Assembly: GCA_903831455.1 (NCBI GenBank) | Contig: CAIKXV010000146.1 | Span: 1-45,689 of the forward strand | DNA length: 45,689 nucleotides | Direction: 5' to 3' | From: an uncultured Pseudomonadota bacterium | GTDB lineage: Bacteria > Pseudomonadota > Gammaproteobacteria > Burkholderiales > CAIKXV01 | Part shown: positions 24,284-44,345 of the stretch, one piece after another | Numbering within the stretch: position 1 is the first letter of the stretch | Layout of the letters: every line of letters begins with the position of its first letter | Translations under genes and position numbers: made by a program | The notes under the pieces: generated by a model | The model's input: only the letters and a program-made list of their open reading frames with translations | Told to the model about the DNA's origin: nothing | Databases searched by the model: none

Positions 24284-25096
24284 CTACTTGAGCTTGCGTC
24301 GCAGCCATGCCCCCAGCGAGTCGACCACCACCACGCAGGCGAGGATGGTGAGCAGGATCGCGGAGACCTGGTCGTAGCGGATCAGGCGCAGTGCGGCCAT
24401 CAGCTCGAAGCCGATGCCGCCCGCGCCCACGATGCCCAGCACCGCCGAGGCCCGGAAGTGATACTCCCAGCGGTAGATGGTGATGTCGGCCAGTTGAGGC
24501 AGCACCTGGGGCAGCACCGCGTGCGTGATGACCTGGAAGCGGCTCGCGCCTGCCGCGGTCGCCGCCTCCAGCGGCTTGGGATCGACGTGTTCGATCGCCT
24601 CCGCGTAGAACTTCGCCACCATGCCGGTGGAGTGCAGCGCAAGCGCGAGCACACCCGGCAGTGCGCCGAAGCCGACCGCCGCGACCAGCAGCACGCCGAA
24701 GATGATCTCCGGCACCGATCGCAGGGCGGCCAGCGCCGTGCGCGAGACGCGGTAGACCACGGGATTGGGCGACGTGTTGGGTGCGGCGAGCAGCGCGAAG
24801 GGTAGCGACAGCACGACCGCCAGCGCGGTGCCGGCGATCGACATCGCCAGCGTGTCGAGCAGAGGACGCAGCCAGGCCTGCCAGCGGCTGAAGTCCGGCG
24901 GCACCATTTCCGAGGCGAGCTGCGCCACGGCAGGTCCGCCCTCGATGAAGCGCCGCGCGTCGAAGAAGCCGGTGATGGCCAGCGCGGCGATGCAGACGGC
25001 CGCGATGACCACCACCAGCCGGGCATGCCCGAGCCCCGTGCGGCGGGCCTCGGCCAGGAGGGCCTCGTGGCGAGTGGTGCTGGCGACCGTCATCAT
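24284..25096 (-). CDS. ptxC: Phosphite/phosphonate ABC transporter permease (PtxC/PhnE family)
   Basis: A 270-residue inner-membrane permease with about six membrane segments. The PhnE/PtxC-type coupling segment is seen as FYAEAIEHVDPKPLEAATAAGAS, followed by the LPQVLPQLADITIYRWEYHFRAS region typical of phosphonate permeases. The start ATG at 25096 overlaps the binding protein stop (ATGA). It is the third gene of an ATPase - binding protein - permease operon, the order ptxA-ptxB-ptxC. The name depends on the adjacent ptxD; from sequence alone it could equally be a phosphonate permease. Confidence 0.85.
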   Translation of the reverse strand: MMTVASTTRHEALLAEARRTGLGHARLVVVIAAVCIAALAITGFFDARRFIEGGPAVAQLASEMVPPDFSRWQAWLRPLLDTLAMSIAGTALAVVLSLPFALLAAPNTSPNPVVYRVSRTALAALRSVPEIIFGVLLVAAVGFGALPGVLALALHSTGMVAKFYAEAIEHVDPKPLEAATAAGASRFQVITHAVLPQVLPQLADITIYRWEYHFRASAVLGIVGAGGIGFELMAALRLIRYDQVSAILLTILACVVVVDSLGAWLRRKLK

Positions 25097-25965
25097 TTCA
25101 CCTTGGCCAGGTCCATCTTCAGGATCTGCGCGGTCTCGCGCAGGACGTCGTAGGACTTGTCGGAGGCTGCGGCGAAGGCCTCGACCCGGAACGCTCGCAG
25201 GACCTCCTTGTCCTTCATGTTGAGGAAGGCGTCGCGGATCGCCTGCTTGAGCTGCGGCGCGAGGTTGCCCTGCATCGTGATCGGGTAGTTCGGGATGTCG
25301 GCGGTCACGTCCAGGCGCACGACCTTCGCCGGGTCGATCACCTTGCGCTCGATCAGCGTGCGGAAGATCGGCTCCGACAGCGCGCCGGCCGGGATCTGGC
25401 CCGCCTGTACCGCGCGCGCGACCGCATCGTGGGTGCCGAGGTGGACCACCTTGTAGTCCTTGTCGCCCTCGAGGTTCGCCTTGCGCAGCAGGTGCGCGCG
25501 CGGCGCGAGGTGGCTGGAGGTGGAGGCCTGGTCGCCGAAGCCGAACGGACGCCCGCGAACGTCGGCGAGTGTCTTCACCGGGCCGCCGGCCGTGGCGATC
25601 AGGATCGACTGGTAGCTCGCCGACCCGCGCTCGACGCCGACGGCGAAGGCCTCGATCTCCGGCGCTCGCGACTTGGCGAGCACGTAGGAGAACGGCCCGA
25701 AGTAGGCGACCTCGATACGGCCGAAGCGCATCGCCTCGATCATCGAGGAGTAGTCGGTGGTGACCACCAGTTCGATGTCCTTCTTCAGCGCTTTCTCGAG
25801 GTGGGTCTTCAGCGGTTGCGCGTTCTGGATCAGCGTGGATGCGTTCTCGTCGGGCAACAGGGCCACGCGCAGGCGGGACGGATCGCGCGTCTGTGCGGAA
25901 ACGGGCAGCGACAGCGGCAGGGACAGGGACAACGTCAGCAGCGGAAGGAACGAACGGCGGTTCAT
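25093..25965 (-). CDS. ptxB: Phosphite-binding periplasmic protein (PtxB, PhnD family)
   Basis: A 290-residue PhnD-family binding protein with a signal peptide (residues 1 to about 25, ending VSAQ). After it comes RVALLPDENAST, then TTDYSSMIEAMRFGRIEVAYFGPFSYVLA. The ligand-binding loop is seen as DQASTSSHLAP, and HDAVARAVQAGQIPAGALS also belongs to the family. The STSS form of the loop differs from the STSG form of the second system in this window. The start at 25965 was chosen because GAGG lies 7 bases before that ATG, while the ATG at 25977 has no site. By position next to ptxD the likely ligand is phosphite; phosphonate cannot be excluded. Confidence 0.87.
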   Translation of the reverse strand: MNRRSFLPLLTLSLSLPLSLPVSAQTRDPSRLRVALLPDENASTLIQNAQPLKTHLEKALKKDIELVVTTDYSSMIEAMRFGRIEVAYFGPFSYVLAKSRAPEIEAFAVGVERGSASYQSILIATAGGPVKTLADVRGRPFGFGDQASTSSHLAPRAHLLRKANLEGDKDYKVVHLGTHDAVARAVQAGQIPAGALSEPIFRTLIERKVIDPAKVVRLDVTADIPNYPITMQGNLAPQLKQAIRDAFLNMKDKEVLRAFRVEAFAAASDKSYDVLRETAQILKMDLAKVK

Positions 25966-26015
25966 CGTGGACCTCATGGGCAGGGGAGAAGAGGGCGTCG
26001 GCGCGTGCCGATGGT

Positions 26016-26867
26016 TCAGGCAGCCTCGGCGGCGAGCGGAGGATCGAAGCCGTCCGAGTCGATGGCACCCCCCGCCCGTGGCGCCAGCACGGCACCCTGG
26101 CCGTAGATGCGCGCGAGCGCGTCGGCGTCGAGTCGCGACGGCGAGTCGTCGAACACCACGCGGCCGGCAGCCAGCGCGACGACGCGGTCTGCGAAGCGGC
26201 GCGCGAGTTCGACCTGGTGCAGGCTCACCACGGCCGCGATGCCGGCCGACTGGCAGACCTCGTGGATCAGCGCCAGCACCCGCTGCGCGGTCGCTGGATC
26301 AAGGCTGGCGACCGGCTCGTCGGCCAGGACCAGCCGGGGCTGCTGGGCCAGCGCGCGGGCGATGCCCACGCGTTGCTGCTGGCCACCGGAGAGCTGGTCG
26401 CAGCGCTGCAGGGCATGATCGATGAGCCCGACGTTCTCGAGCGCCTGCAGGGCAATCAGCCGGTCTGCTCGCGGCAGCGGGAGCAGGGTGCGCAGGCTCG
26501 GGTACATGCCGAGGCGTCCGGTGAGCACGTTGTCGAGCGCGCTCAGGCGACCGATCAGCTGGTGCTGCTGGAACACCATCGCGGCGCGTGTGCGCAGCTG
26601 TCGAAGCGCCGCGCGGCCGCGCGCCTCGCCGATGCCGTCGAACCACACCGAGCCGTCGGTGGGCGGAACCAGGCCGTTGAGCGCGCGCATCAGCGTCGAC
26701 TTTCCCGCGCCCGAGGGGCCCAGCAGCACGAGGAACTCCCCCGGCGCCACGTGCAGGTGGGTGGGGTGCAGTGCGCGGTATCCGTTCGGGTAGGTGACCC
26801 CGAGGCCGCGGGCCTCCAGAAGGAGACTGCGGGGGGGCGAGGGGGGCGGCGTGAGGGTCATCGGCAT
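26016..26867 (-). CDS. ptxA: Phosphite/phosphonate ABC transporter ATPase (PtxA/PhnC family)
   Basis: A 283-residue ATPase with Walker A GPSGAGKS (50-57), Q-loop FQQHQLIGRLS, signature LSGGQQQR (159-166), Walker B LVLADEP (179-185) and the switch His in SLHQVE. The FQQHQL(I)GRLSALDNVL(T)GRL segment is typical of the PhnC group. About 20 extra C-terminal residues follow the usual end. It is the first gene of the transport operon, directly behind the PhoB-like promoter element, and is followed after 50 bases by the binding protein gene. Confidence 0.87.
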   Translation of the reverse strand: MPMTLTPPPSPPRSLLLEARGLGVTYPNGYRALHPTHLHVAPGEFLVLLGPSGAGKSTLMRALNGLVPPTDGSVWFDGIGEARGRAALRQLRTRAAMVFQQHQLIGRLSALDNVLTGRLGMYPSLRTLLPLPRADRLIALQALENVGLIDHALQRCDQLSGGQQQRVGIARALAQQPRLVLADEPVASLDPATAQRVLALIHEVCQSAGIAAVVSLHQVELARRFADRVVALAAGRVVFDDSPSRLDADALARIYGQGAVLAPRAGGAIDSDGFDPPLAAEAA

Positions 26868-26885
26868 CTCGCTTCGAGGCGGGAA

Positions 26886-26924
26886 GTCCGAACCCTAGGT
26901 GCTGCGCGTTACACGGCCATGACG
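26886..26924 (-). promoter_or_regulatory. PhoB-box-like promoter element of the ptxABC operon
   Basis: Read on the minus strand, half-sites GTCAT (26923-26919) and GTAAC (26912-26908) are spaced 11 bases apart, as in a PhoB box. They are followed after ten bases by TAGGGT (26897-26892) in the -10 position. The element is shared with the second phosphorus-type transporter (44126-44164): 30 of 39 positions agree, including blocks GTCCGAAC and CTGCGCGT on the plus strand. The implied transcript starts about 17 bases before the ptxA ATG. Binding by PhoB is inference. Confidence 0.6.
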
Positions 26925-26963
26925 AAACACGAAACGAAAGTGCAACACATCACGAAACATAAT
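26918..26963 (+). promoter_or_regulatory. Repeated ACGAAA(C/G) motifs and -10-like site before ptxD
   Basis: The AT-richer patch between the divergent ptxA and ptxD genes contains ACGAAAC at 26922, 26929 and 26952 and ACGAAAG at 26934. The 12-mer CAT(G/C)ACGAAACA occurs at 26918-26929 and 26948-26959, 30 bases apart. CATAAT at 26958-26963 is a good -10 hexamer toward ptxD and has no matching -35, which fits an activator-dependent promoter. These repeats are candidates for binding by the LysR protein encoded after ptxD or by PhoB. Confidence 0.5.
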
Positions 26964-27121
26964 CGGTCGTCGTCGGTGTGCGCTCCACGGGTCGTGACCT
27001 TCGATGCCCGCGTGCGTCCCGGCCGGGACGCGCGGATGCCGCGTCAAACCCTCCCGCTCCCGATGCCCGTCACCGCGATCGGTGCGAAGGATCGCCTGCC
27101 GTACTCACCGAGGAACACCCC

Positions 27122-28120
27122 ATGTCTCGTCCTGTTGCCGTGGTCACCAACCGCGCCTTTCCCGAAACGCTGGCCTTGCTCGCGGGCACCTGCGAAGTGC
27201 GATCGAACGATGCCGATGAACCCCTGCCACGCGAAGCGCTGCTCGCGATGGCGACCGACGCGCAGGGACTGGTGGCCTTCATGCCCGACTGCATCGACGA
27301 GGCCTTCCTCGAGCGCTGCCCCCGGTTGCGCGTGGTGGCCTGTGCGCTCAAGGGCTATGACAATTTCGACATCGAGGCCTGTACCCGGCGCGGCGTGTGG
27401 GTGAGCATCGTGCCCGATCTGCTCACCGAGCCCACGGCCGAGCTGGCGATCGGGCTCGCGATCGGCCTGGGGCGGCATATCGGCGGATCCGACCGTTTCG
27501 TTCGAACCGGCCGCTTCGCGGGCTGGCGGCCGACCTTCTACGGCCAGTCGCTCGACGGCAGCACGGTGGCGATCATCGGGGCCGGCCGGGTGGGTCGCGC
27601 GATCGCGCGCAAGCTGTCGGGCTTCGCCTGCGAGGTGCTGATGACCGACGTGCACGCGCAGGCGGCGGCGCCGGGCCACGCGCGCCTCGTCGATCTCGAC
27701 GAGGCGCTCTCACGCGCGCACTTCGTGATCCTCGCGGTCCCGCTCGATGCGGGCACGCTGCACATGGTCGACGAACGCTGGCTCGAGCGGATGCGTCCTG
27801 GCGCGCTGCTGGTCAACCCGGCGCGCGGGTCGGTGGTGTCCGAGGCGGCGGTCGCGCGAGCGCTGGTCGAGGGACGGCTGGCCGGCTACGCGGCCGACGT
27901 CTACGAGTGCGAGGACTGGGCCCGGGTCGATCGGCCCGCCGGCATCGAGCCGCGCCTGCTGGCCCTGCCCGAGCGCACGCTGTTCACGACCCACATCGGG
28001 TCCGCGGTGCTCGGGGTGCGCATGGCGATCGAGCGCGACGCCGCCGAGAACCTGCTCGAAGCGCTTGCGGGCGGGCGACCGCACGGGGCCGTCAATCAGC
28101 CTGCCGCGCGCCGAGCGTGA
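27122..28120 (+). CDS. ptxD: Phosphite dehydrogenase (phosphonate dehydrogenase, NAD-dependent)
   Basis: A 332-residue D-2-hydroxyacid dehydrogenase-fold enzyme that oxidises phosphite to phosphate with NAD. It matches Pseudomonas stutzeri PtxD (336 residues, recalled) along its length, with motifs VACALKGYDNFD (73-84), GWRPTFYG (134-141) and ADVYECEDWARVDRP (258-272). Residues equivalent to the described active site are all present: Met54, Lys77, Trp135, Tyr140, catalytic Arg235, Glu264 and His291, and Ser294. The nucleotide loop is GAGRVG (153-158), with Asp176 after strand two, which favours NAD over NADP. An AGGA site precedes the ATG at 27122. It is divergent from the ptxABC-like transporter and overlaps the LysR gene. 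Confidence 0.93.
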   Translation: MSRPVAVVTNRAFPETLALLAGTCEVRSNDADEPLPREALLAMATDAQGLVAFMPDCIDEAFLERCPRLRVVACALKGYDNFDIEACTRRGVWVSIVPDLLTEPTAELAIGLAIGLGRHIGGSDRFVRTGRFAGWRPTFYGQSLDGSTVAIIGAGRVGRAIARKLSGFACEVLMTDVHAQAAAPGHARLVDLDEALSRAHFVILAVPLDAGTLHMVDERWLERMRPGALLVNPARGSVVSEAAVARALVEGRLAGYAADVYECEDWARVDRPAGIEPRLLALPERTLFTTHIGSAVLGVRMAIERDAAENLLEALAGGRPHGAVNQPAARRA

Positions 28121-29034
28121 TCGATCTCGACTGCCTGGCCTCGTTCGTGGCGGTGGTCGACACCGGAAGCTTCGGTGCGGCTGCCGCCCACAGGGGGCTG
28201 TCGCAGTCCGGCGTGAGCCAGCATGTGGCGCGCATCGAAGCGGCGCTGGGCGAGCGACTGCTCGTGCGCGGGCGCCGGGCGAGCCTGCCCAGCGAGGCCG
28301 GCAGCCGGCTGCTGCCCTACGCGCGCGAACTGCTCGCGCTCGAGGCGCGGGCCCGTGAATCGGTCGCGCCGTCGCGGCTGGCGCTCGGCGCCTCGGGCAA
28401 CATCGCGACCTATCTGCTGCCCGAGCTGGTGCGCCGGTTTGGCGAGACTCCCGCAGGGTGCGCAGTGGCGGTGGATCTGTCCACCGGATCCAATCCCGAC
28501 GTGCTGCGTCGCCTGGGGCATCGACTGCTCGACCTCGCGCTCACCGAGTGGGTGCCGGCGGACCCCGCCCTTCGGGCGACGGCCTGGCACCGCGAGCCCC
28601 TCGGAGTGATCGTTCCTCCGGGCCATCGGCTGGCGTGCGGGGGCCCGCTGTCGATCGATCAGCTGGCGGCCGAGCCGATGATCGGGGGCGAGCCCGGGTC
28701 GGGCACGGCCACGCTGCTGCGCGAGCGGTTCGGCGAGGCTGCAAGGCGGTTGCCGGTGCGGCAGGCGTTCGGGAGTACCGAGGGCGTCAAGCGCGCGGTG
28801 ATGGCGGGTCTGGGGGTATCGATCGTGATGCGCGTGGCGGTGCAGGCCGAACTGGACCGCGGTGCGCTGGTCTGGAGGGAGCTGGAAGGCGAGCCGCTCG
28901 TCAAGACGTTGCAGCTCGTGCGGCGCGCGGGGGACGGCGACGGCGCGCTCGCGGAGCGCTTTGCCCGGTTCCTGCAGGCGGCAGGGGCGCCACGAGCGCG
29001 CGAGACGGATCAGGCGAGCCGTCCCGCCCTGTAG
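28117..29034 (+). CDS. ptxE: LysR-family regulator of the ptx locus (PtxE-like)
   Basis: A 305-residue LysR-type regulator. The N-terminal winged helix-turn-helix is seen as LASFVAVVDTGSFGAAAAHRGLSQSGVSQHVARIEAALGE split over residues 7-46, followed by a substrate-binding-like effector domain (about 90-290). The GTG at 28117 overlaps the ptxD stop as GTGA, so it is co-translated with ptxD. In P. stutzeri the fifth gene of the ptx locus, ptxE, is also a LysR regulator located directly after ptxD, which is the basis for the name. Its last 25 bases overlap the convergent pirin gene. Confidence 0.87.
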   Translation: MIDLDCLASFVAVVDTGSFGAAAAHRGLSQSGVSQHVARIEAALGERLLVRGRRASLPSEAGSRLLPYARELLALEARARESVAPSRLALGASGNIATYLLPELVRRFGETPAGCAVAVDLSTGSNPDVLRRLGHRLLDLALTEWVPADPALRATAWHREPLGVIVPPGHRLACGGPLSIDQLAAEPMIGGEPGSGTATLLRERFGEAARRLPVRQAFGSTEGVKRAVMAGLGVSIVMRVAVQAELDRGALVWRELEGEPLVKTLQLVRRAGDGDGALAERFARFLQAAGAPRARETDQASRPAL

Positions 29035-34114: not shown

Positions 34115-35203
34115 TCAGTGCGTCACGCGCATCCCGAGGGCGTGTGCCTGGCGTCGTTCGAAGTCCCTGCAACGATCGTCGTGGTGCTGGCCGACGATGC
34201 CCCCGCGCACGGTGCCGGGCTCGATGCTGCGGAAGATGGCCCTCCAGCTCTCGGGCAGCCGGTCGCCGTCGGGCGTGGCGAGCCAGAGCCTGAACAGCAG
34301 CCGGCGGCGCTCGGCCTCCGGGTGATCGACGAAGTCGGTGCGCGAATGCAGCGTGACGTGGCTGTTCATCAGCTGCAGGTCGCCGGCCTCGAGGAACATC
34401 GTGTACGCGAGGTCGGGGCGACGCACCAGGCTGTCGAAGCGCTCGAGCGCCTCGCGGTGGCGCAGCGACAGCTTCGGAACCCCATCGATCTGCTGGGCCG
34501 ACTGCACGCGGTTGCGGTTCCACTTGCTGAACAGCAGGCCACCCTCGAAGTCGAACACCGGTTGCGCGTACGAGGGCGCCTCGTCGGCGGCCTGCTCGCC
34601 CTGGCGGCTGAAATGGATCGGCTCATGCAGCAGTTCGAACAGGCTGGGATGCTCCTCGCGCATGCAGGCGTGCGCGGCGAGCGAGCTGGTGACGATGCTC
34701 ATCCCCCCCTGTGCCGCCGGGTTGTAGCAGGCGAGCGCGACGAAGTCGGTCGAGTCGGTATGGAAGTCGAGTTCGGCGTTCGAGCTGTAGCCGCGGCCGG
34801 TGGTGGTCCGGTAGGCCGCGCCGGTATCGCGCACCTCGGACATGTAGTGGGTGGCCTTGCCCTGCGGCCGGCCGACACCCATGTGCAGGCCCAGTGCCCA
34901 TGCGAGCAGTCCGAAGCGCTTCTCGTCGAGGCCCTCGCGCGGCATGCCCTTCAGCAGCGAGAAACCGCGGCCATGGCGCGCCTCGGCGACGGCCGCTGCC
35001 AGGGGCGCGGCGGCGGCCCCGATGTCGAAGTCGTCGCGGCGGTAGTCGAGCAGCGGCCGGTCGGGATCCCAGGCGCGGTCGACCGCCGCCCGCAGGTCGC
35101 GTCGTGCGCGCTCGTCGAGCCGCAGCACCCAGCGCTCGTCGGCGGCGAGGTCGGCGGCGGCCCAGCGCGAAGGAAGATCGGGAGTGGCGGCGATCGATGT
35201 CAT
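34115..35203 (-). CDS. TauD/TfdA-family Fe(II)/2-oxoglutarate dioxygenase
   Basis: A 362-residue dioxygenase of the TauD/TfdA superfamily. The iron-binding pair is the HTD motif at residues 148-150 (AELDFHTDSTD), with the distal histidine at 286 in HVTLHSRTDF. The 2-oxoglutarate arginine is probably in the RRRLLFRLWL strand (about 299-305). The start is placed at the ATG at 35203; the longer frame would need a TTG. The members of this subgroup have no assigned substrate that I recall. It lies between a Bug receptor and a hydrolase transcribed in the same direction, and 5 kb from ptxE. The 256-base gap before it (33859-34114) holds no recognisable gene. Confidence 0.88.
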   Translation of the reverse strand: MTSIAATPDLPSRWAAADLAADERWVLRLDERARRDLRAAVDRAWDPDRPLLDYRRDDFDIGAAAAPLAAAVAEARHGRGFSLLKGMPREGLDEKRFGLLAWALGLHMGVGRPQGKATHYMSEVRDTGAAYRTTTGRGYSSNAELDFHTDSTDFVALACYNPAAQGGMSIVTSSLAAHACMREEHPSLFELLHEPIHFSRQGEQAADEAPSYAQPVFDFEGGLLFSKWNRNRVQSAQQIDGVPKLSLRHREALERFDSLVRRPDLAYTMFLEAGDLQLMNSHVTLHSRTDFVDHPEAERRRLLFRLWLATPDGDRLPESWRAIFRSIEPGTVRGGIVGQHHDDRCRDFERRQAHALGMRVTH

Positions 35204-37037: not shown

Positions 37038-37508
37038 ATGGCCCGAAGGATCGCATTGACCGTCAACGGTCGCGTCAGTCGCATCGAGGTCGACGACCCG
37101 ACCATGCCGCTGCTCTACGCGTTGCGCAACGAGCTGAACCTGAAGGGGCTGCATTTCGGCTGCGGGCTGGCGCAGTGCGGCGCCTGCACCGTGCAGGTCG
37201 GTGCAGCGGCCGTGCGCTCGTGTGCGCTGCCGGTCTCTCAGGCCGAGGGCAAGCCGATCACCACGCTCGAGGGCATCGGCGAGACCGGCCGCCTGCACCC
37301 GCTGCAGCAGGCCTTCATCGACGAGCAGGCCGCCCAGTGCGGCTACTGCACCGGCGGCATGATCATGCAGGCCAAGGCCTTGCTCGAGTCGAACCGGTCG
37401 CCCAGCGACGAGGAGATCCGGCGTGCCCTGGCCGGCAACCTGTGCCGGTGCGGATCGCAGTTGCGCGTGCTGCGGGCGGTCAGGCGCGCCGCGCGCGCGA
37501 TGGCCTGA
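37038..37508 (+). CDS. 2Fe-2S subunit of an isoquinoline 1-oxidoreductase-type molybdenum hydroxylase
   Basis: A 156-residue small subunit with two [2Fe-2S] clusters. The plant-type cluster uses Cys42, 47, 50 and 62 (FGCGLAQCGAC). The helical-domain cluster uses Cys101, 104, 136 and 138 (CGYCTGG and LCRCGS). The short length and two-subunit gene pair without a FAD subunit match isoquinoline 1-oxidoreductase (IorA). It passes electrons from the molybdenum subunit encoded 12 bases downstream to an outside acceptor. Confidence 0.93.
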   Translation: MARRIALTVNGRVSRIEVDDPTMPLLYALRNELNLKGLHFGCGLAQCGACTVQVGAAAVRSCALPVSQAEGKPITTLEGIGETGRLHPLQQAFIDEQAAQCGYCTGGMIMQAKALLESNRSPSDEEIRRALAGNLCRCGSQLRVLRAVRRAARAMA

Positions 37509-37520
37509 CGGGGGACGCCG

Positions 37521-39743
37521 ATGGATCTTCCGATGATGGATCGTCGCGGGTTCCTCGCTGCCGGTGGCGGGTTGTGCGTGGGCCTGTCGCTGGGCGGCGG
37601 GAGGGCCTCGGCGCAGGGTTTCCGCGCCGCCCGAGGGCTGTCCCTGGGCGAGGTGGATACGTTTCTCGCAGTCGCCGCCGATGGCAGGGTGACGCTGTAT
37701 TCGGGCAAGGTGGACCTGGGCACGGGGGTTCGCACCGCGCTCATGCAGATCGCGGCCGAGGAGCTCGACCTGCCGATGTCGCGGGTGAGCGTGGTGCAGG
37801 GCGATACCCTGCTCACGCCCGACCAGGGCGCCACCATCAGCAGCGTGTCCATCTCCCGCGGCGGGGTGGAGGTGCGGCGCGCCGCGGCCACCGCTCGCGC
37901 TGCGCTCCTCGCGGCCGCGGCTCGGGAATGGTCGGTTCCGGTGGAGGGGTTGGCTACCCTCGATGGCGAGGTGCGCGCGCCTGACGGCCGCGCTCTGGAT
38001 TACGGCAAGCTGGTCGGGGGTCGAACCTTCATGCTGAAGGTGGACCCCAAGGTGAAGGTCAAGGACCCGGCGAGCTACCGTCTGGTCGGACGTTCGGTGC
38101 CCCGGGTGGAACTGCCCGCCATGGTCACCGGCCAGTTCGAGTTCATGCACGACGTTCGCGTGCCCGGCATGCTGCATGCCCGGGTCGTGCGTCCGCCGGC
38201 CATGCGCGGACGCCTGGGCGAGGTCGACGATTCGGCTGCGCGTCGCATCCCGGGTTTCGTGGCGACCGTACGCGTGCGCGATTTCCTCGCGGTCGTCGCT
38301 CGCGACGAGTGGGCGGCGATCCGCGCCGCCCGCGCGCTTCGCGCGCAGTGGGCGCGCTGGGAAGGGCTGCCCGACCAGTCGCAGTTGTGGGCCTCCGTAC
38401 GCGCCTCGCCCATCCTGCGCGACGATGTCACGCAGAACGTGGGCAACGCGCCGCTGATGCTCCAGAAGGCCACCCGCGTGCTGCGGTCCACCTTCGATTT
38501 CGCGATCCACACCCATGGGTCGATCGGCCCCTCGTGCGCGATCGCCCAATGGGAGGACGGTCGCCTGACCTGCTGGAGCGCCTCGCAGCAGACCCACGAA
38601 CTGCGCCGCCAGCTCGCCGACATGTTCGCGCTGGGCGCGGACCAGGTCCGCTGCCTCTATGTCGAGGGCTCGGGCTGCTACGGACGAAACGGGCACGAGG
38701 ATGCCGCGGCCGACGCGGCGCTGATTGCGCGGGAGATCGGGCGCCCGGTGAGGGTGCAGTGGAGCCGCGAGGACGAGCATGTCTGGGATCCCAAGGGGCC
38801 GCCCACGCTGATCGACTACGTGGCGGGGCTGGACGAGCGCGGCCAGGTGACGGCCTGGACAGCGGAGGCCTGGATCCCGCAGGGTCAGTCGGTGTCGCGC
38901 GCCACCCTAGTGGCGGCCGAACTCGGCGGGCTTCCGACCGATGCGTCGCACCCGGGCAGCGTGCAGCAGCATCTGGCCATCCAGTACGGGTTTCCGAACA
39001 TCCGCAGCGTGGCGCACCGCCTTGCCCATACGCCGTTCAGGCCGTCGTGGATCCGCACGCCGGGGCGGATGCAGAACACGTTCGGCAACGAGGTGTTTGT
39101 CGACGAACTCGCCCAGGCGGCTGGAGTGGATCCGATCGCCTTCCGGTTGCGTCACCTGTCCGATGCCCGTGCGGCCGAGGTGCTGGGGCGGGTGGCGAAG
39201 CTCGCGCAGTGGGTTCCGCACGAGGCCACGCGACCGGTTCTGCAGGCAGGCAGGCGCACCGGGCGCGGGGTCTCCTACGTCAAGTACGAGCTGGTGCGAA
39301 CCTACGTGGCGGTGGTGGCCGAGGTGGAGGTCGATGTCGACTCCGGTGCCGTCCGCGTCACGCGGGTGCATGTCGCGCACGACTGCGGCCAGGTGATCAA
39401 CCCCGACGGCCTGCGCAACCAGATCGAAGGCTGCGTGATCCAGACGGCCAGCCGCACGATGGTCGAGGAGCTGCGCTTCGATCGTTCGACGGTCACCAGC
39501 CGCGACTGGGCGAGCTATCCGATCATGCGATTCCCCGATGTTCCGGATGTGACGATCGACATCATCGATCGCCCCGGCGAGCCCCCCTGGGGGGCGGGCG
39601 AGCCGACCGCGGCAGTCATTCCATCGGCCATCTCCAACGCGATCCACGATGCGATCGGCGTGAGAATGCGCTCGGTGCCCTTCACGCCCTCGAAGGTCAA
39701 GGCTGCCCTGCGGGCCGCCCGTGAGGCGGGGACGCGCGGCTGA
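37521..39743 (+). CDS. Molybdopterin-binding subunit of an isoquinoline 1-oxidoreductase-type hydroxylase
   Basis: A 740-residue xanthine dehydrogenase-family large subunit. It begins with a twin-arginine signal (MDRRGFLAAGGG), so the assembled enzyme is probably exported with the small subunit. Cofactor-binding elements include GKVDLGTGVRTALMQIAAEEL and the C-terminal GAGEPT loop with the catalytic Glu694, followed by PSAISNAIHDAIG. These enzymes hydroxylate N-heterocycles or oxidise aldehydes. The substrate cannot be read from the sequence. No XdhC/MocA-type maturation gene lies next to it in the window. Confidence 0.92.
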   Translation: MDLPMMDRRGFLAAGGGLCVGLSLGGGRASAQGFRAARGLSLGEVDTFLAVAADGRVTLYSGKVDLGTGVRTALMQIAAEELDLPMSRVSVVQGDTLLTPDQGATISSVSISRGGVEVRRAAATARAALLAAAAREWSVPVEGLATLDGEVRAPDGRALDYGKLVGGRTFMLKVDPKVKVKDPASYRLVGRSVPRVELPAMVTGQFEFMHDVRVPGMLHARVVRPPAMRGRLGEVDDSAARRIPGFVATVRVRDFLAVVARDEWAAIRAARALRAQWARWEGLPDQSQLWASVRASPILRDDVTQNVGNAPLMLQKATRVLRSTFDFAIHTHGSIGPSCAIAQWEDGRLTCWSASQQTHELRRQLADMFALGADQVRCLYVEGSGCYGRNGHEDAAADAALIAREIGRPVRVQWSREDEHVWDPKGPPTLIDYVAGLDERGQVTAWTAEAWIPQGQSVSRATLVAAELGGLPTDASHPGSVQQHLAIQYGFPNIRSVAHRLAHTPFRPSWIRTPGRMQNTFGNEVFVDELAQAAGVDPIAFRLRHLSDARAAEVLGRVAKLAQWVPHEATRPVLQAGRRTGRGVSYVKYELVRTYVAVVAEVEVDVDSGAVRVTRVHVAHDCGQVINPDGLRNQIEGCVIQTASRTMVEELRFDRSTVTSRDWASYPIMRFPDVPDVTIDIIDRPGEPPWGAGEPTAAVIPSAISNAIHDAIGVRMRSVPFTPSKVKAALRAAREAGTRG

Positions 39744-40768: not shown

Positions 40769-41542
40769 TCAGCGCCCTGAGGCTGCCGCCCAGGCGGTGC
40801 CGATCATCGGCGCGGCGCGCAGACCGAGGTGTCCGTAGTCGCCGAAGCGGGCAAGGGCGTGCGCCGCGAGCGCCTCGGCGCCACCATAGCCGCCGCTGAA
40901 GTGCGCGAAGCCGGCTCCGGCCGCGTGGGCGCACTGTGCGTCGACCACGCTATCGCCGACGAGCACGGACTCGCGAGGGTGCGCGCCGAGCATGGCGATC
41001 GCGTGCAGCAGGGGGGCGGGATCGGGCTTGAGCGCCAAACCCCGACCAGCGCCCACGACGATGTCGAACGCGAAGTCCAGCCGCAGCGCACGCAGCACGC
41101 CCTCGGCATCCGACTGCGACTTGTTCGTGCATACGCCCAGCGCGCACCCCGCCGCCCGCAGCGCATGCAGGCAGTCGAGCACGCCCGGGAAGGGCAGCGC
41201 GCGCAGGGCCGGCGCCATGGAATAGGCGGTCTCGTAGGCCACGCACAGGGCCTGTGCGCGTTCCTCGTCGAGCGCGAGGGCCTCGGCGACGGCTGCGGCG
41301 GTCCCGGCGAGTCCGCCGTGCAGCGAGGCCATGACCACATCCGGGTGCACGGGCGGCAGGTCGAGCGCGGCCAGCGCGTCGTCGAGCGCACCGGTGAGAT
41401 CGGGCAGGGTGTCCACGAGCGTGCCGTCGAGATCGAACACGACGACGGGGTGCGCAGCCAGCCATTGCCCGAGGGCATCGGGCGCGAGCGGATCGTGGGT
41501 GGCGGGGGGAGTCATTCGCGGAGGGCGGTCGGCCGGCGGCAT
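40769..41542 (-). CDS. HAD-family phosphatase (phosphoglycolate phosphatase-like)
   Basis: A 257-residue HAD hydrolase. Motif I is FDLDGTLVDTLPDL (Asp37 nucleophile, Asp39), motif II is CTNKS, and motif III/IV are LKPDPAPLL and VGDSVVD; a helical C1 cap sits between motifs I and II. This is the Gph/phosphoglycolate phosphatase pattern. The ATG at 41542 overlaps the stop of the upstream PhnC-type ATPase as TGATG, so the phosphatase is the last gene of a transporter operon; an ATG at 41515 is the alternative. Coupling to a phosphorus-compound importer suggests that it releases phosphate from the imported compound or a product of it, which is inference. Confidence 0.88.
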   Translation of the reverse strand: MPPADRPPRMTPPATHDPLAPDALGQWLAAHPVVVFDLDGTLVDTLPDLTGALDDALAALDLPPVHPDVVMASLHGGLAGTAAAVAEALALDEERAQALCVAYETAYSMAPALRALPFPGVLDCLHALRAAGCALGVCTNKSQSDAEGVLRALRLDFAFDIVVGAGRGLALKPDPAPLLHAIAMLGAHPRESVLVGDSVVDAQCAHAAGAGFAHFSGGYGGAEALAAHALARFGDYGHLGLRAAPMIGTAWAAASGR

Positions 41543-42378
41543 CAGGGAAGGGGGGGCGAGAAGGCGGGAGGGGATACCCGACGTTCATCGGGCACGGACG
41601 GTACCGGCGGGACCGGAGCTGCGGGCTGTTGCACACGAGCGGCTGCGTAGAGCGCATCCTGGGTCGGGCGATCGAGTTGCCCGGGAGCTCCCTCGAACAC
41701 CACCTGCCCTCCGCGCAGGCCGACGAGCCGATCGGCGTGGCTGCGCGCGAAGTCCACCTGGTGCAGGCTGCACAGCACCGCGATGCCGTGCCGATGCGCG
41801 ATCTCGCGCAGGGTGTCCATCACCCGCGCGGCCGACTCGGGGTCGAGGCTGGCGACCGGCTCGTCGGCCAGCAGCACGCCCCCCTGCTGCGCCAGCACCC
41901 GGGCGATCGCCACCCGCTGCTGCTGTCCGCCGGACAGGGCGTCGGCGCGTACGTAAGCCTTGTCGAGCAGGCCGACCTGGTCGAGGACGCCGAGTGCCCG
42001 CTGCCGGTCGGCGTGCGCGAAGCGGCGGACCAGCACGCGCCACAGGGGCGTGCCCGCCAGACGCGCGAGCAGCACGTTGTCGATGGCCGACAGTCTGCCG
42101 ATCAGGTTGTGCTGCTGGAACACGAGGCCGATGCCGCGCCGGGCCGCTCGCAGGGCCGACCCTCGCAGCGAATCGATGCGTTGCCCGTGCACGTATACGG
42201 CCCCCGAGTCCGGGCGCGCGAGCCCGCTCAGGCAGCGGAACACGGTGGACTTCCCGGCGCCGCTCGCCCCGAGCAGCGCGACCAGCTCGCCTGCATGCAC
42301 CTGCAGCGACACGCCACCGAGCGCCTGCACCGCGCCGTAGCGCTTGTGCACGTCGTTCAGCTGCAGCGGCGCGGTCAT
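41542..42378 (-). CDS. PhnC-family ABC transporter ATPase (second phosphorus-compound system)
   Basis: A 278-residue ATPase with Walker A GASGAGKS (37-44), FQQHNLIGRLSAIDNVL, signature LSGGQQQR, Walker B VLLADEP and SLHQVD. The sequence is a clear paralogue of the ATPase at 26016-26867. The C-terminal 30 residues are Pro/Val-rich and beyond the usual end. Its ATG overlaps the permease stop as ATGA. Order here is binding protein, permease, ATPase, phosphatase, unlike the ptx operon. Confidence 0.88.
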   Translation of the reverse strand: MTAPLQLNDVHKRYGAVQALGGVSLQVHAGELVALLGASGAGKSTVFRCLSGLARPDSGAVYVHGQRIDSLRGSALRAARRGIGLVFQQHNLIGRLSAIDNVLLARLAGTPLWRVLVRRFAHADRQRALGVLDQVGLLDKAYVRADALSGGQQQRVAIARVLAQQGGVLLADEPVASLDPESAARVMDTLREIAHRHGIAVLCSLHQVDFARSHADRLVGLRGGQVVFEGAPGQLDRPTQDALYAAARVQQPAAPVPPVPSVPDERRVSPPAFSPPLP

Positions 42379-43199
42379 ACCAGGCGGCGCCGGATCCAGG
42401 CGCTCAGCTGGTCGATCAGCGTGACCATGATCAGCACGGCGACCGTGAGCGTGAACAGGCGCTGGAAGTCCAGCAGGTCGATGGCGGCCTTGATCTCGAT
42501 GCCGATGCCGCCGGCGCCGACGATACCGAGCACCGTCGAGGTCCGCACGTTGGCTTCCCACACGTACAGCGACACCGAGGACAGGTTGGGCAGCACGGCC
42601 GGAAACACCGCGAAGGACATCACCTTGGCGTGGCCTGCCCCGCTCATCGCCGCGGCCTCCAGCGGGGCACGTGGCAGGGTCTCGATCGCCTCGGCGTTGA
42701 GCTTCGTGATCACGCCGATCGAGTGCACGATCATGCCCAGTACCCCGGCGAAAGGCCCGAGCCCCACCGCCGCGACGAACAGGATCGCGAAGACCACCGT
42801 ATCGATGCCGCGGCAGGCGTTGGAAAACCAGCGCACCGGCAGCGCGATCCATCGCGACGGGGTCACGTTGCCGGCGACCAGCATCGACAGGGGCGCGGCC
42901 ACGAGGGCCGCCACGGTGGTGCCGATGGTGGCGATCGCGACGGTCTCGAACGCACGCAGCGCGATCGTGTCCAGCTCGCGGGCGTAGGGAGGCCAGCCGG
43001 TGGCCGCCCATTCGGCAAGCCGTGGCAGGCCGCGCAGCAGCGCACCCAGGTCCACCCGCGCGAGCACCGCGCATGTCGCGAGGAAAGCCAGGGCCACGCA
43101 CAGGGCACCCGCGCGAAACAGGGTCTCGCGCGAGGTCCAGTCGATCGTCGGCTCGAGGTACCCGCCCTCGAGCCGTCGCAGCGCGACGCGTCCGGTCAT
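42375..43199 (-). CDS. PhnE-family ABC transporter permease
   Basis: A 274-residue inner-membrane permease with about six membrane segments and the coupling segment LNAEAIETLPRAPLEAAAMSGA. The LPNLSSVSLYVWEANVRTSTVLGIVGAGGIGIE region is shared with phosphonate permeases. It starts 10 bases after the binding protein stop and overlaps the ATPase. The substrate is set by the binding protein and is not known. Confidence 0.88.
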   Translation of the reverse strand: MTGRVALRRLEGGYLEPTIDWTSRETLFRAGALCVALAFLATCAVLARVDLGALLRGLPRLAEWAATGWPPYARELDTIALRAFETVAIATIGTTVAALVAAPLSMLVAGNVTPSRWIALPVRWFSNACRGIDTVVFAILFVAAVGLGPFAGVLGMIVHSIGVITKLNAEAIETLPRAPLEAAAMSGAGHAKVMSFAVFPAVLPNLSSVSLYVWEANVRTSTVLGIVGAGGIGIEIKAAIDLLDFQRLFTLTVAVLIMVTLIDQLSAWIRRRLV

Positions 43200-43209
43200 C
43201 GCCTGCCGC

Positions 43210-44085
43210 TCAGCCCTTGAGCACGCCGACCTCGCGACCCATCTTCTCCAGGACCGCGTACGGCTCGTGGCCCGTGGGCACGAAGCCGGTATAGGGCCAG
43301 GGCATCATGTCCCGGGCCTTCGCCTCCGGCATCGAGGACAGCGCCTGCTGCAGGCGCCGTGCGAGCTCGGGATCGAAGCCGCGGCGCACCACCACCGGCT
43401 CGTTGGGCAGCGGATCCGATTCCCACACGATCCGGTTGGAGTCGGGCTTGATCTGGCCGTTGCGGATCATCGTGTTGCGGTGCGTGTCCCAGCCGGTGGC
43501 GAGGTCGACCTGGCCGCCGACGGTCGCCATCTGCGCGGCCGCGGCCGAGGCACCCTCGGCATAGCGTCCGAAGAAACTGCGCGGCTCGATGCCGCGCTGG
43601 CGCAGGAAGTGCGTGGGCACCAGCCAGCCGGACGTGGAGCCGACGTCGAGCATCTGCATCGACATTCCCTTGGCGTCCTCGGGGAAGCGCTTGATCTCCA
43701 GCCCCGGCCGCCCGACCACGATGGCCTTGTAGTAGTTGCGGCCCTGGATCAGGAGCATGGAGATCGCCTGCGCGTCACCCTTCAGCCGGGCGAGCACGTA
43801 GCCCCAGGGACCCATCTGCGCCACGTCGATCTGCTGGGTGGCGAGGGCGACCGAGATACCCGCCCAGTCGTTCGCGACGGTGAGGTCGAGCTCCATGCCC
43901 AGCGCGTCGGCCGCCATGCGGTAGACCGGCTCCCACACGCGGCGGGTATCGGCCTGGGTCGGCTGCTGCGGTCCGAGGCCCACGCGAAGAACCGGCTTGC
44001 GCTGGGCACGGACGGGCAGGGTACGGGTCAGGGCAAGGCCGCCGAGGGCGGCGGCGCCGGCGGTGATCACGGTGCGACGGGACAT
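43210..44085 (-). CDS. PhnD-family phosphate-analogue binding protein
   Basis: A 291-residue binding protein with a twin-arginine-like or Sec signal (MSRRTVITAGAAALGG, ending VRAQ at about 28). PhnD-type elements are QIDVAQMGPWGYVLARL, NYYKAIVVGRPGL and the phosph(on)ate-binding loop DVGSTSGWLVP. The STSG loop is that of classical phosphonate receptors and differs from the STSS loop of the PtxB-like protein, so a different ligand is likely. The start at 44085 is preceded by GGAG at a good distance; the longer frame lacks similarity. It is the first gene behind the PhoB-like array. Confidence 0.88.
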   Translation of the reverse strand: MSRRTVITAGAAALGGLALTRTLPVRAQRKPVLRVGLGPQQPTQADTRRVWEPVYRMAADALGMELDLTVANDWAGISVALATQQIDVAQMGPWGYVLARLKGDAQAISMLLIQGRNYYKAIVVGRPGLEIKRFPEDAKGMSMQMLDVGSTSGWLVPTHFLRQRGIEPRSFFGRYAEGASAAAAQMATVGGQVDLATGWDTHRNTMIRNGQIKPDSNRIVWESDPLPNEPVVVRRGFDPELARRLQQALSSMPEAKARDMMPWPYTGFVPTGHEPYAVLEKMGREVGVLKG

Positions 44086-44125
44086 CGGAGTTCTCCGGAA
44101 CGAGGCCGAACGGACGCGGCGGACG

Positions 44126-44185
44126 GTCCGAACGCTAGCGACTGCGCGTGACGCGCCCGTGTCGCTTGCGTGAATGGCGGGTGAC
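44126..44185 (-). promoter_or_regulatory. PhoB-box-like array upstream of the second transporter operon
   Basis: On the minus strand four half-sites lie in exact 11-base phase: GTCAC (44185-44181), TTCAC (44174-44170), GACAC (44163-44159) and GTCAC (44152-44148). Ten bases after the last one is TAGCGT (44137-44132) in the -10 position. This is the layout of tandem PhoB boxes overlapping the -35 region. The last part is the same element found before ptxA. The expected leader to the ATG at 44085 is about 40 bases. Confidence 0.68.
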
Positions 44186-44345
44186 ACGGCAGGCGTCCGG
44201 CAATGCCACGCGACTCGTACGCGGTGGGCGGGGCTTGCGCGTGGGAGTCGTCCGGGCGCGGGCGTGCGGCTGCGGTCCGGTCATGCCGGGCACACGCCCT
44301 GCGTGACTGCCCCGGCAGTCGAAACGGGGCGGACGCGGGTGAAGC

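Follow-up and report, generated by a model that had tools for sequence, protein, structure and literature searches.

The closest described relative of the system considered here is HtxB of Pseudomonas stutzeri (PDB 5ME4), where the substitutions D206A or D206N break the D206–R178 salt bridge and binding is abolished or nearly so (PMC6629693). A modelled "hybrid" class of HtxB-like proteins carries S128, H158 and Y/F176 (PMC5700983, PMC6629693). PtxB, PhnD and GpxB all use a histidine to bind the third phosphoryl oxygen (PMC5700983, PMC12718374), and in E. coli PhnD D205 is among the acids holding the amine of 2-aminoethylphosphonate, 2-AEP (PMC5700983). GpxB is a phosphonate-family binding protein that has evolved phosphate-ester binding, and UgpB and PhnD-family importers can serve one substrate in one organism (PMC12718374). 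Among the open-licence PubMed Central (PMC) matches listed, no title or opening of an abstract beyond the HtxB/hybrid and GpxB papers describes the pocket class or the operon reported below. The operon lies at positions 40769–44085 of the window (the whole analysed stretch of 45,689 nucleotides, contig CAIKXV010000146.1 of an uncultured Burkholderiales bacterium) and combines an ABC importer that has an HtxB-related binding protein with a HAD phosphatase. Our preferred reading, to which we assign a probability of about one half, is that a small organic phosphate ester enters the cell by this importer, captured by a binding protein with a remodelled pocket, and that the HAD enzyme releases inorganic phosphate from the imported ester in the cytoplasm.

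The four-gene operon, importer plus HAD phosphatase, is real, and the first-pass annotation had its coordinates and gene order right:

43210–44085, minus strand: substrate-binding protein, HtxB-related, 291 aa (ATG at 44085; PF12974, 147.7 bits, cut-off 27)
42375–43199, minus strand: PhnE-type permease, 274 aa (TIGR01097, 241.8 bits, cut-off 216.7)
41542–42378, minus strand: PhnC-type ATPase, 278 aa (TIGR02315, 294.0 bits, cut-off 266.1)
40769–41542, minus strand: HAD subfamily IA phosphatase, 257 aa (ATG at 41542; PF13419, 95.7 bits)

The genes overlap or nearly touch, as had been described: the junctions are a 10-base gap followed by overlaps of 4 bases and 1 base, and hence a single transcript is likely. 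The upstream neighbour, 260 bases off, is a TctC-type receptor gene. The PF12974, PhnE and PhnC models all score above their cut-offs, as expected of a phosphonate-type ABC importer. The earlier label of a PhnDEC-type importer suits the permease and the ATPase, but the binding protein falls below the cut-off of the PhnD equivalog (TIGR03431, 133.8 of 261.1 bits) and is nearest to HtxB. It begins with MSRRTVITAG, which we take to be a Tat-like start, and the S-T-S-G loop pointed out at first pass is formed by residues 150–153.

In a sequence search of solved structures, the nearest relative of the binding protein is HtxB (E 2.2e-69, 41% identity), followed by 5JVB (9.8e-20), PtxB (5O2J, 8.4e-18) and E. 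coli PhnD (7.8e-12). Given the confident AlphaFold2 model (predicted local distance difference test, pLDDT, 88.2), Foldseek places HtxB entries at ranks 1–3, and the VIA structural comparison yields Z 33.0–33.7 with a root-mean-square deviation of 2.1–2.3 over 258–264 residues, the next family having Z 27.7. Thus HtxB is nearest by both sequence and fold. Further relatives were collected by a contig scan with the peptide patterns QMGPWGY and LGPQQPTQ, which yielded 36 loci; the patterns favour Q68 and Q18, and these positions were not used as evidence. Two loci with a partial binding protein (L090, L091) stand outside all counts. The clade of the binding protein is split from all other rows by a branch with a Shimodaira–Hasegawa-like approximate likelihood ratio test (SH-aLRT) value of 100 (34 rows), in a tree built by a quick method, with HtxB and PtxB on long branches and with L055 and the truncated L087 excluded. 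Among 300 genomes of the order, the matches to the binding protein at E 1e-40 form two groups, one at 78–80% identity and the other at no more than 47%, and the range separating them is empty.

The pocket signature of the window protein, W74, S150, A181, W199, T201, H202 and E229, corresponds to HtxB positions 52, 128, 158, 176, 178, 179 and 206; in HtxB numbering, used below, the protein has W52, P71, Y97, S128, T129, S130, A158, W176, T178, H179 and E206. It has in common with HtxB the fold, the W52 cap, the T129–S130 loop and Y97, and differs by N128S, F158A, M176W, R178T and D206E. Residues S128, A158, W176, H179 and E206 are present in 35/35 rows (the window and 34 loci), W52 in all 34 rows that reach it (one row is truncated), and position 178 is T in 32 of 35 rows and I in three Rhodoplanes rows. 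Both the F158 wall and the D206–R178 salt bridge of HtxB are missing, with A, E and T in the window and A, E and T/I throughout the clade.

Nor do the other described pockets fit. The hybrid HtxB-like proteins share S128 and W52 with the clade, but have H158 and Y/F176 and, in the 16 control loci of this type, R178 and D206, where the clade has A, W, T/I and E, so that of the three class-defining residues only the serine is found, with A for H and W for F/Y. All 16 hybrid-type loci among our controls have H158, F/Y176, R178 and D206; one of them (L054 on C192) comes from the same genome as the window. The equivalents of PtxB His160 and Tyr208 are A and E, residues that are H and Y in the PtxB encoded by the window itself. 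GpxB, the glycerol-1/3-phosphate binder (PDB 9LF9; Z 25.3), is also a phosphonate-family protein adapted to a phosphate ester, but it is only 18% identical to the window protein; it has His199 among the phosphate ligands and Arg223/Thr247 holding the glycerol, and the histidine column is Ala here, the column being assigned from PMC12718374, as GpxB is not in the alignment. E. coli PhnD (PDB 3P7I; 18% identity, Z 26.4) has an acid at the cap position, D205, aligned with E206 of the clade; besides the failed PhnD model, its phosphoryl histidine is absent. Judged from the alignment, the clade pocket matches no published pocket among those compared. Given the fixed A158, W176, T/I178 and E206, hypophosphite and phosphite are unlikely ligands. 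As E206 stands at the PhnD D205 position, close to W52 and W176, it is tempting to guess at an ester that carries an amine, e.g. phosphoethanolamine, but this is purely a guess. The substitutions F158A, M176W, R178T and D206E provide a small set of point differences for probing ligand choice in the family.

The HAD motifs DLDGT (with DxD), C[ST]N[KR], KP and GDS..D are intact in 8/8 operon-linked homologues, and so are the catalytic residues, in the window protein D37, D39, T139, K172, D197 and D201 (position 139 is S or T); H75-x-G77 is invariant among these proteins. A fold search with the predicted model (pLDDT 85.0) gives mostly phosphoglycolate-phosphatase- and phosphoglucomutase-like matches, which do not decide the substrate. 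The pairwise identity of the eight HADs is 30–52%, compared to 59–82% for their binding proteins, and therefore the HAD evolves faster. The distance matrices of the two proteins correlate with r 0.66, a value reached in 811 of 20000 permutations, which is a weak co-evolution signal.

To describe gene neighbourhoods, genes were called by a custom script, and HADs and phosphoesterases were recognised by BLAST and regular expressions. The Pfam scan covered two of the eight HADs (the window and L037, the same gene as L061) and five of ten phosphoesterase loci (L061 via L037, L062, L070, L081, L083), plus L079, whose phosphoesterase, at a distance of seven genes and on the opposite strand, does not enter the count. 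The downstream flank is readable in 30 of 35 loci; L058, L063, L066, L074 and L085 stop at the contig edge, and L073 has one further gene. The controls come from long stretches of 18 of the 23 other genomes that had matches; two of the 18, G210 and G240, proved to be clade members, and in G220 (L052) the gene caller found no binding protein. The resulting 17 control rows, including two further loci of the window's genome, are 16 of hybrid type and L055.

Conservation of the HAD gene with the transporter, on which the first-pass annotation had made its proposal depend, holds at close distances: the HAD gene is in the operon in 6/6 readable close relatives (75–82% identity, window included). It does not extend to the rest of the clade, where only 2 of 24 readable loci have it, making 8/30 overall. 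A PF00149-type phosphoesterase is found inside or just beside the operon in ten loci. By the same rule neither gene occurs in the 17 control rows, a zero that is possibly too low, as a 332/351-aa metallophosphoesterase-like protein, missed by the expression and Pfam, is seen by eye in L047 and L054. On the tree, the HAD label requires three changes and the phosphoesterase label five (29 rows, with L058, L063, L066, L072, L074 and L087 out and L085 in). The surroundings of the hybrid-type importers in L054 (2623–11657) and L047 contain, by eye, pyridine nucleotide-disulfide oxidoreductase-like and DUF547-like proteins together with the metallophosphoesterase-like one; the L047 cluster also has a radical SAM protein.

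The fullest operons, L056, L057 and L061 (76–82% identity in the best segment), consist of a divergent LysR gene, the binding protein, permease and ATPase, UgpC-, UgpA-, UgpE- and UgpB-like genes, a phosphodiesterase and the HAD. L037, a copy of L061, served for the family models. The LysR protein resembles the aminoethylphosphonate type, with a score below the cut-off (298.3 bits, cut-off 341.1), the four Ugp-like proteins score under the NCBIfam cut-offs, and the phosphodiesterase is nearest SpdA (216.1 of 400 bits), its solved relatives being Rv0805 and the 2ZO9/2DXL phosphohydrolase, presumably GpdQ (E 2e-28 to 1e-26). L058 stops after UgpC, and a contig of G210 ends with the remaining genes, including the phosphodiesterase and the HAD. 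In L059 the arrangement is the same as in the window: binding protein, permease, ATPase, HAD. L060 has LysR, a 65-aa scar, the HAD, binding protein, permease and ATPase. The scar (L060:6278–6472) is in frame; its first part corresponds to UgpC residues 1–22 and its end to phosphodiesterase residues 225–262. It is best read, from these matches, as the trace of a deletion that removed everything from the start of UgpC to the end of the phosphodiesterase, with the HAD and the importer kept.

An independent arrangement is seen in L083 (labelled Azoarcus): binding protein, permease, ATPase, phosphodiesterase, HAD. In L081 the HAD is in the operon and a phosphodiesterase is two genes upstream, and in L062 a phosphodiesterase is immediately upstream of the operon. 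Four Phreatobacter-labelled loci (L070, L071, L076, L077) have an upstream regulator, a Ugp-like importer and another PF00149 protein; the L070 regulator is of the PhnF type (189 bits, cut-off 156.8), and the metallophosphoesterase of L070 has no solved relative at E 0.001. Beside the clade member L079 (4374–9858), a single run of genes encodes another PhnD-like binding protein (30%, BLAST), an ATPase and a permease belonging to it, and a CUT1-like set.

The second importer and the phosphodiesterase of the sister operons resemble UgpBAEC with a phosphodiesterase, a system of glycerophosphodiester uptake, and UgpB-like and PhnD-family importers are encoded there side by side. The full operon probably serves phosphodiester scavenging by the Ugp-like importer plus the HtxB-related one. 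The metallophosphodiesterase would act before the HAD step, converting the diester to a monoester, from which the HAD would produce an alcohol and phosphate. The window operon has no UgpBAEC-like genes and, of the fuller set, only the PhnD-like importer and the HAD; we infer loss, not later gain, of the other genes in its lineage. Since the window, L059 and L060 have the HAD but no intact phosphodiesterase gene, a monoester rather than a diester is our first choice of ligand. The usual annotation of PF12974 binding proteins is transport of phosphonate or phosphite, and the clade, with its fixed, different pocket and its phosphodiesterase/HAD context, would shift part of this annotation to phosphate esters.

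Several facts weigh against the preferred reading. There is no HAD in 22 of the 30 readable loci, and in 17 of 24 farther loci neither a HAD nor a phosphoesterase is beside the importer. The neighbours of these 17 vary: by eye, L065 has an amidase and L064 a transglutaminase-like gene, and by Pfam, L074 has an RpiR-type regulator and L084 a molybdenum hydroxylase. The Ala in the column of the third-oxygen histidine speaks against a plain monoester. HAD enzymes are often promiscuous, and the HAD need not reveal the substrate. Finally, no sigma-70-like promoter is found at the operon by consensus, and there is no Pho-like repeat; ACGAAA/TTTCGT does not occur in the upstream region 44086–44345.

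The strongest alternative is that the importer takes up a phosphodiester or a phosphonate monoester, the phosphodiesterase acting first and the HAD second. The two-oxygen site of HtxB is kept, the third-oxygen histidine is gone, and there is more room at position 158, as required by phosphorus that bears two substituents and leaves two oxygens free, with A158, W176 and E206 in all 35 rows. The linkage of an SpdA/Rv0805-type metallophosphodiesterase or another PF00149 protein in ten loci and the aminoethylphosphonate-like LysR of L037 point the same way, as do the phosphodiesterases, 46–51% identical to that of the sister operons, near phosphonate-catabolism genes in L116 and L117. On the other hand, the pocket has S128, which in PtxB belongs to a trio of ligands for the third oxygen, and an intact phosphodiesterase is missing from the operons of the window, L059 and L060. 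Nor was an orthologue found elsewhere in genomes G000, G332 and G338, where the best matches are paralogues with 39, 35 and 37% identity; by the matching positions we read G332 and G338 as the genomes of L059 and L060. In G323, a 40% paralogue exists alongside the 77% orthologue. We consider a diester importer a serious but unlikely explanation.

A wider form of this idea is that the PhnD/PtxB/HtxB family has one more specificity class, made up of these 35 proteins and suited to small phosphodiesters or phosphonate monoesters, whose phosphorus bears two substituents and two free oxygens, that the full operon, with its phnDEC-like and Ugp-like importers, metallophosphodiesterase, HAD and LysR, is an undescribed pathway of diester uptake and stripping, and that the window has a stripped-down form of it. 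This we put forward as a tentative proposal that may well be wrong.

The clusters with similar phosphodiesterases are as follows. In L116 (4227–18001, genome G103) and L117 (1755–8565, G250) the SpdA-like phosphodiesterase is near phosphonoacetate hydrolase and phosphonoacetaldehyde dehydrogenase; in L116 alone PhnW is nearby, as well as a Ugp-like importer and an FGGY kinase. Judging by their gene content, these clusters may import phosphonate esters, glyceryl-2-AEP for example, and cleave them. A further phosphodiesterase–HAD pairing is L123 (5880–12392, G186), with a Ugp-like importer, a phosphodiesterase and an adjoining HAD-IIA-like protein (83.7 bits, below the cut-off 100.15).

Next comes the possibility that hypophosphite or phosphite is still bound and the HAD is a bystander. 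HtxB is the nearest solved structure, the P–H...pi tryptophan W52 is retained in 34/34 rows reaching it, and a ptx-type locus is on the same contig:

24284–29034: ptxABCDE-like locus, with a PhnC-, PhnD- and PhnE-type importer (24284–26867), phosphite dehydrogenase and LysR
26016–26867, minus strand: PhnC-type ATPase of this locus
27140–28120, plus strand: putative phosphite dehydrogenase (best solved relatives phosphite dehydrogenases, E ~1e-109; best glyoxylate reductase, 5.5e-58)
after the phosphite dehydrogenase gene: LysR-type gene

However, the D206–R178 salt bridge, needed in HtxB according to PMC6629693, is replaced by E and T/I, F158 is A, and the PtxB-type His and Tyr are absent. Moreover, the genome already has this separate ptx-type importer, and the linkage of the HAD and the phosphodiesterase would be left unexplained. 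Uptake of reduced phosphorus is thus improbable.

The ptx-type locus bears on two side points of the first-pass annotation. Its importer is the first one, to which that of the HAD operon had been called second; it is not a further unknown phosphonate system, as it adjoins the phosphite dehydrogenase gene. We take the combination of importer, phosphite dehydrogenase and LysR to be the make-up of a ptxABCDE locus. It is of the same importer type as that of the HAD operon, but it is a separate operon, and its binding protein is 21% identical to that of the HAD operon and 24% to HtxB. The PhoB-like array had been used as evidence for phosphorus-related import by the HAD operon. It consists of ACGAAA at 26922, 26929, 26934 and 26952, the sole site of the window where 50 bases hold three such motifs, both strands considered, and sits between the ATPase and phosphite dehydrogenase genes, 17 kb from the HAD operon. 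As it is inside the ptx locus, it is no longer evidence for that operon. The coupling of a phosphorus-type importer with a HAD phosphatase, with no C-P cleaving enzyme adjoining, survives this correction, whereas the remodelled pocket and the recurrent phosphodiesterase and Ugp-like importer of the sister operons had been no part of the first-pass picture. A PhoB consensus, with up to three mismatches, has two matches compared to 2.17 expected by chance, one in the 26922 array and the other at 39613, and PhoB control of the HAD operon was rejected. The repeats at 26922–26957, in the divergent gap of the ptx locus, may be a regulator site.

The HAD could also be an ordinary phosphoglycolate phosphatase parked beside an unrelated importer. 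The corresponding model (TIGR01449) is the best family model, and the nearest structures carry this annotation. However, the score, 137.8 bits, is below the cut-off of 180, which two other genes of the genome exceed (195.9 and 189.1 bits), so that the HAD looks like an extra paralogue beside two phosphoglycolate-phosphatase-scoring genes. With the linkage recurring in eight loci and in none of the 17 controls, and the HAD present with the L060 scar, we find this explanation quite improbable. Least probable of all is an importer of a non-phosphorus oxyanion or metabolite: the family also holds arsenite/arsenate binders, and AioX and ArrX are among the structural matches, but these score lower than HtxB does (Z at most 27.7 versus 33), and phosphoesterase neighbours recur.

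The draft genome comprises 306 contigs and 4.1 Mb, with 97.8% completeness and 4.5% contamination; the first base of the window is base 1 of its contig C146. The absence of C-P lyase, PhnW and PhnX, noted earlier beside the operon, extends to the whole draft: there is no PhnJ, setting the system further apart from that of HtxB together with the HAD in the operon and the phosphodiesterase in sister operons, and PhnW and PhnX matches are below cut-off only (PhnX, TIGR01422, 35.3 and 30.2 of 220 bits). At E 1e-60, nothing UgpB-like is matched in G000. Three other strong PF12974 loci are present in the genome (C23, C192 and window 25150–25863). The binding protein of the operon is found in one of 11 genomes of the genus (E 1e-90), whereas a gene at the opposite end of the window has 69–74% matches in all ten others. 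Hence recent arrival of the operon in the window's lineage is likely; the far-end matches make the contig look genuine, not a contaminant.

Two more gene groups of the window deserve mention. The TauD-family dioxygenase at 34115–35203 has as best solved relatives 7N7V and FrbJ, no search aimed at HtxA having been made; FrbJ we take to be a phosphonate hydroxylase. A two-subunit molybdenum hydroxylase (2Fe-2S and MoCo subunits) is encoded at 37038–39743, near the importer on the opposite strand. In L084 (6371–9102) the molybdenum hydroxylase genes are the next same-strand genes after the importer, with a gap of >250 bases, and in L086 they are one gene further.

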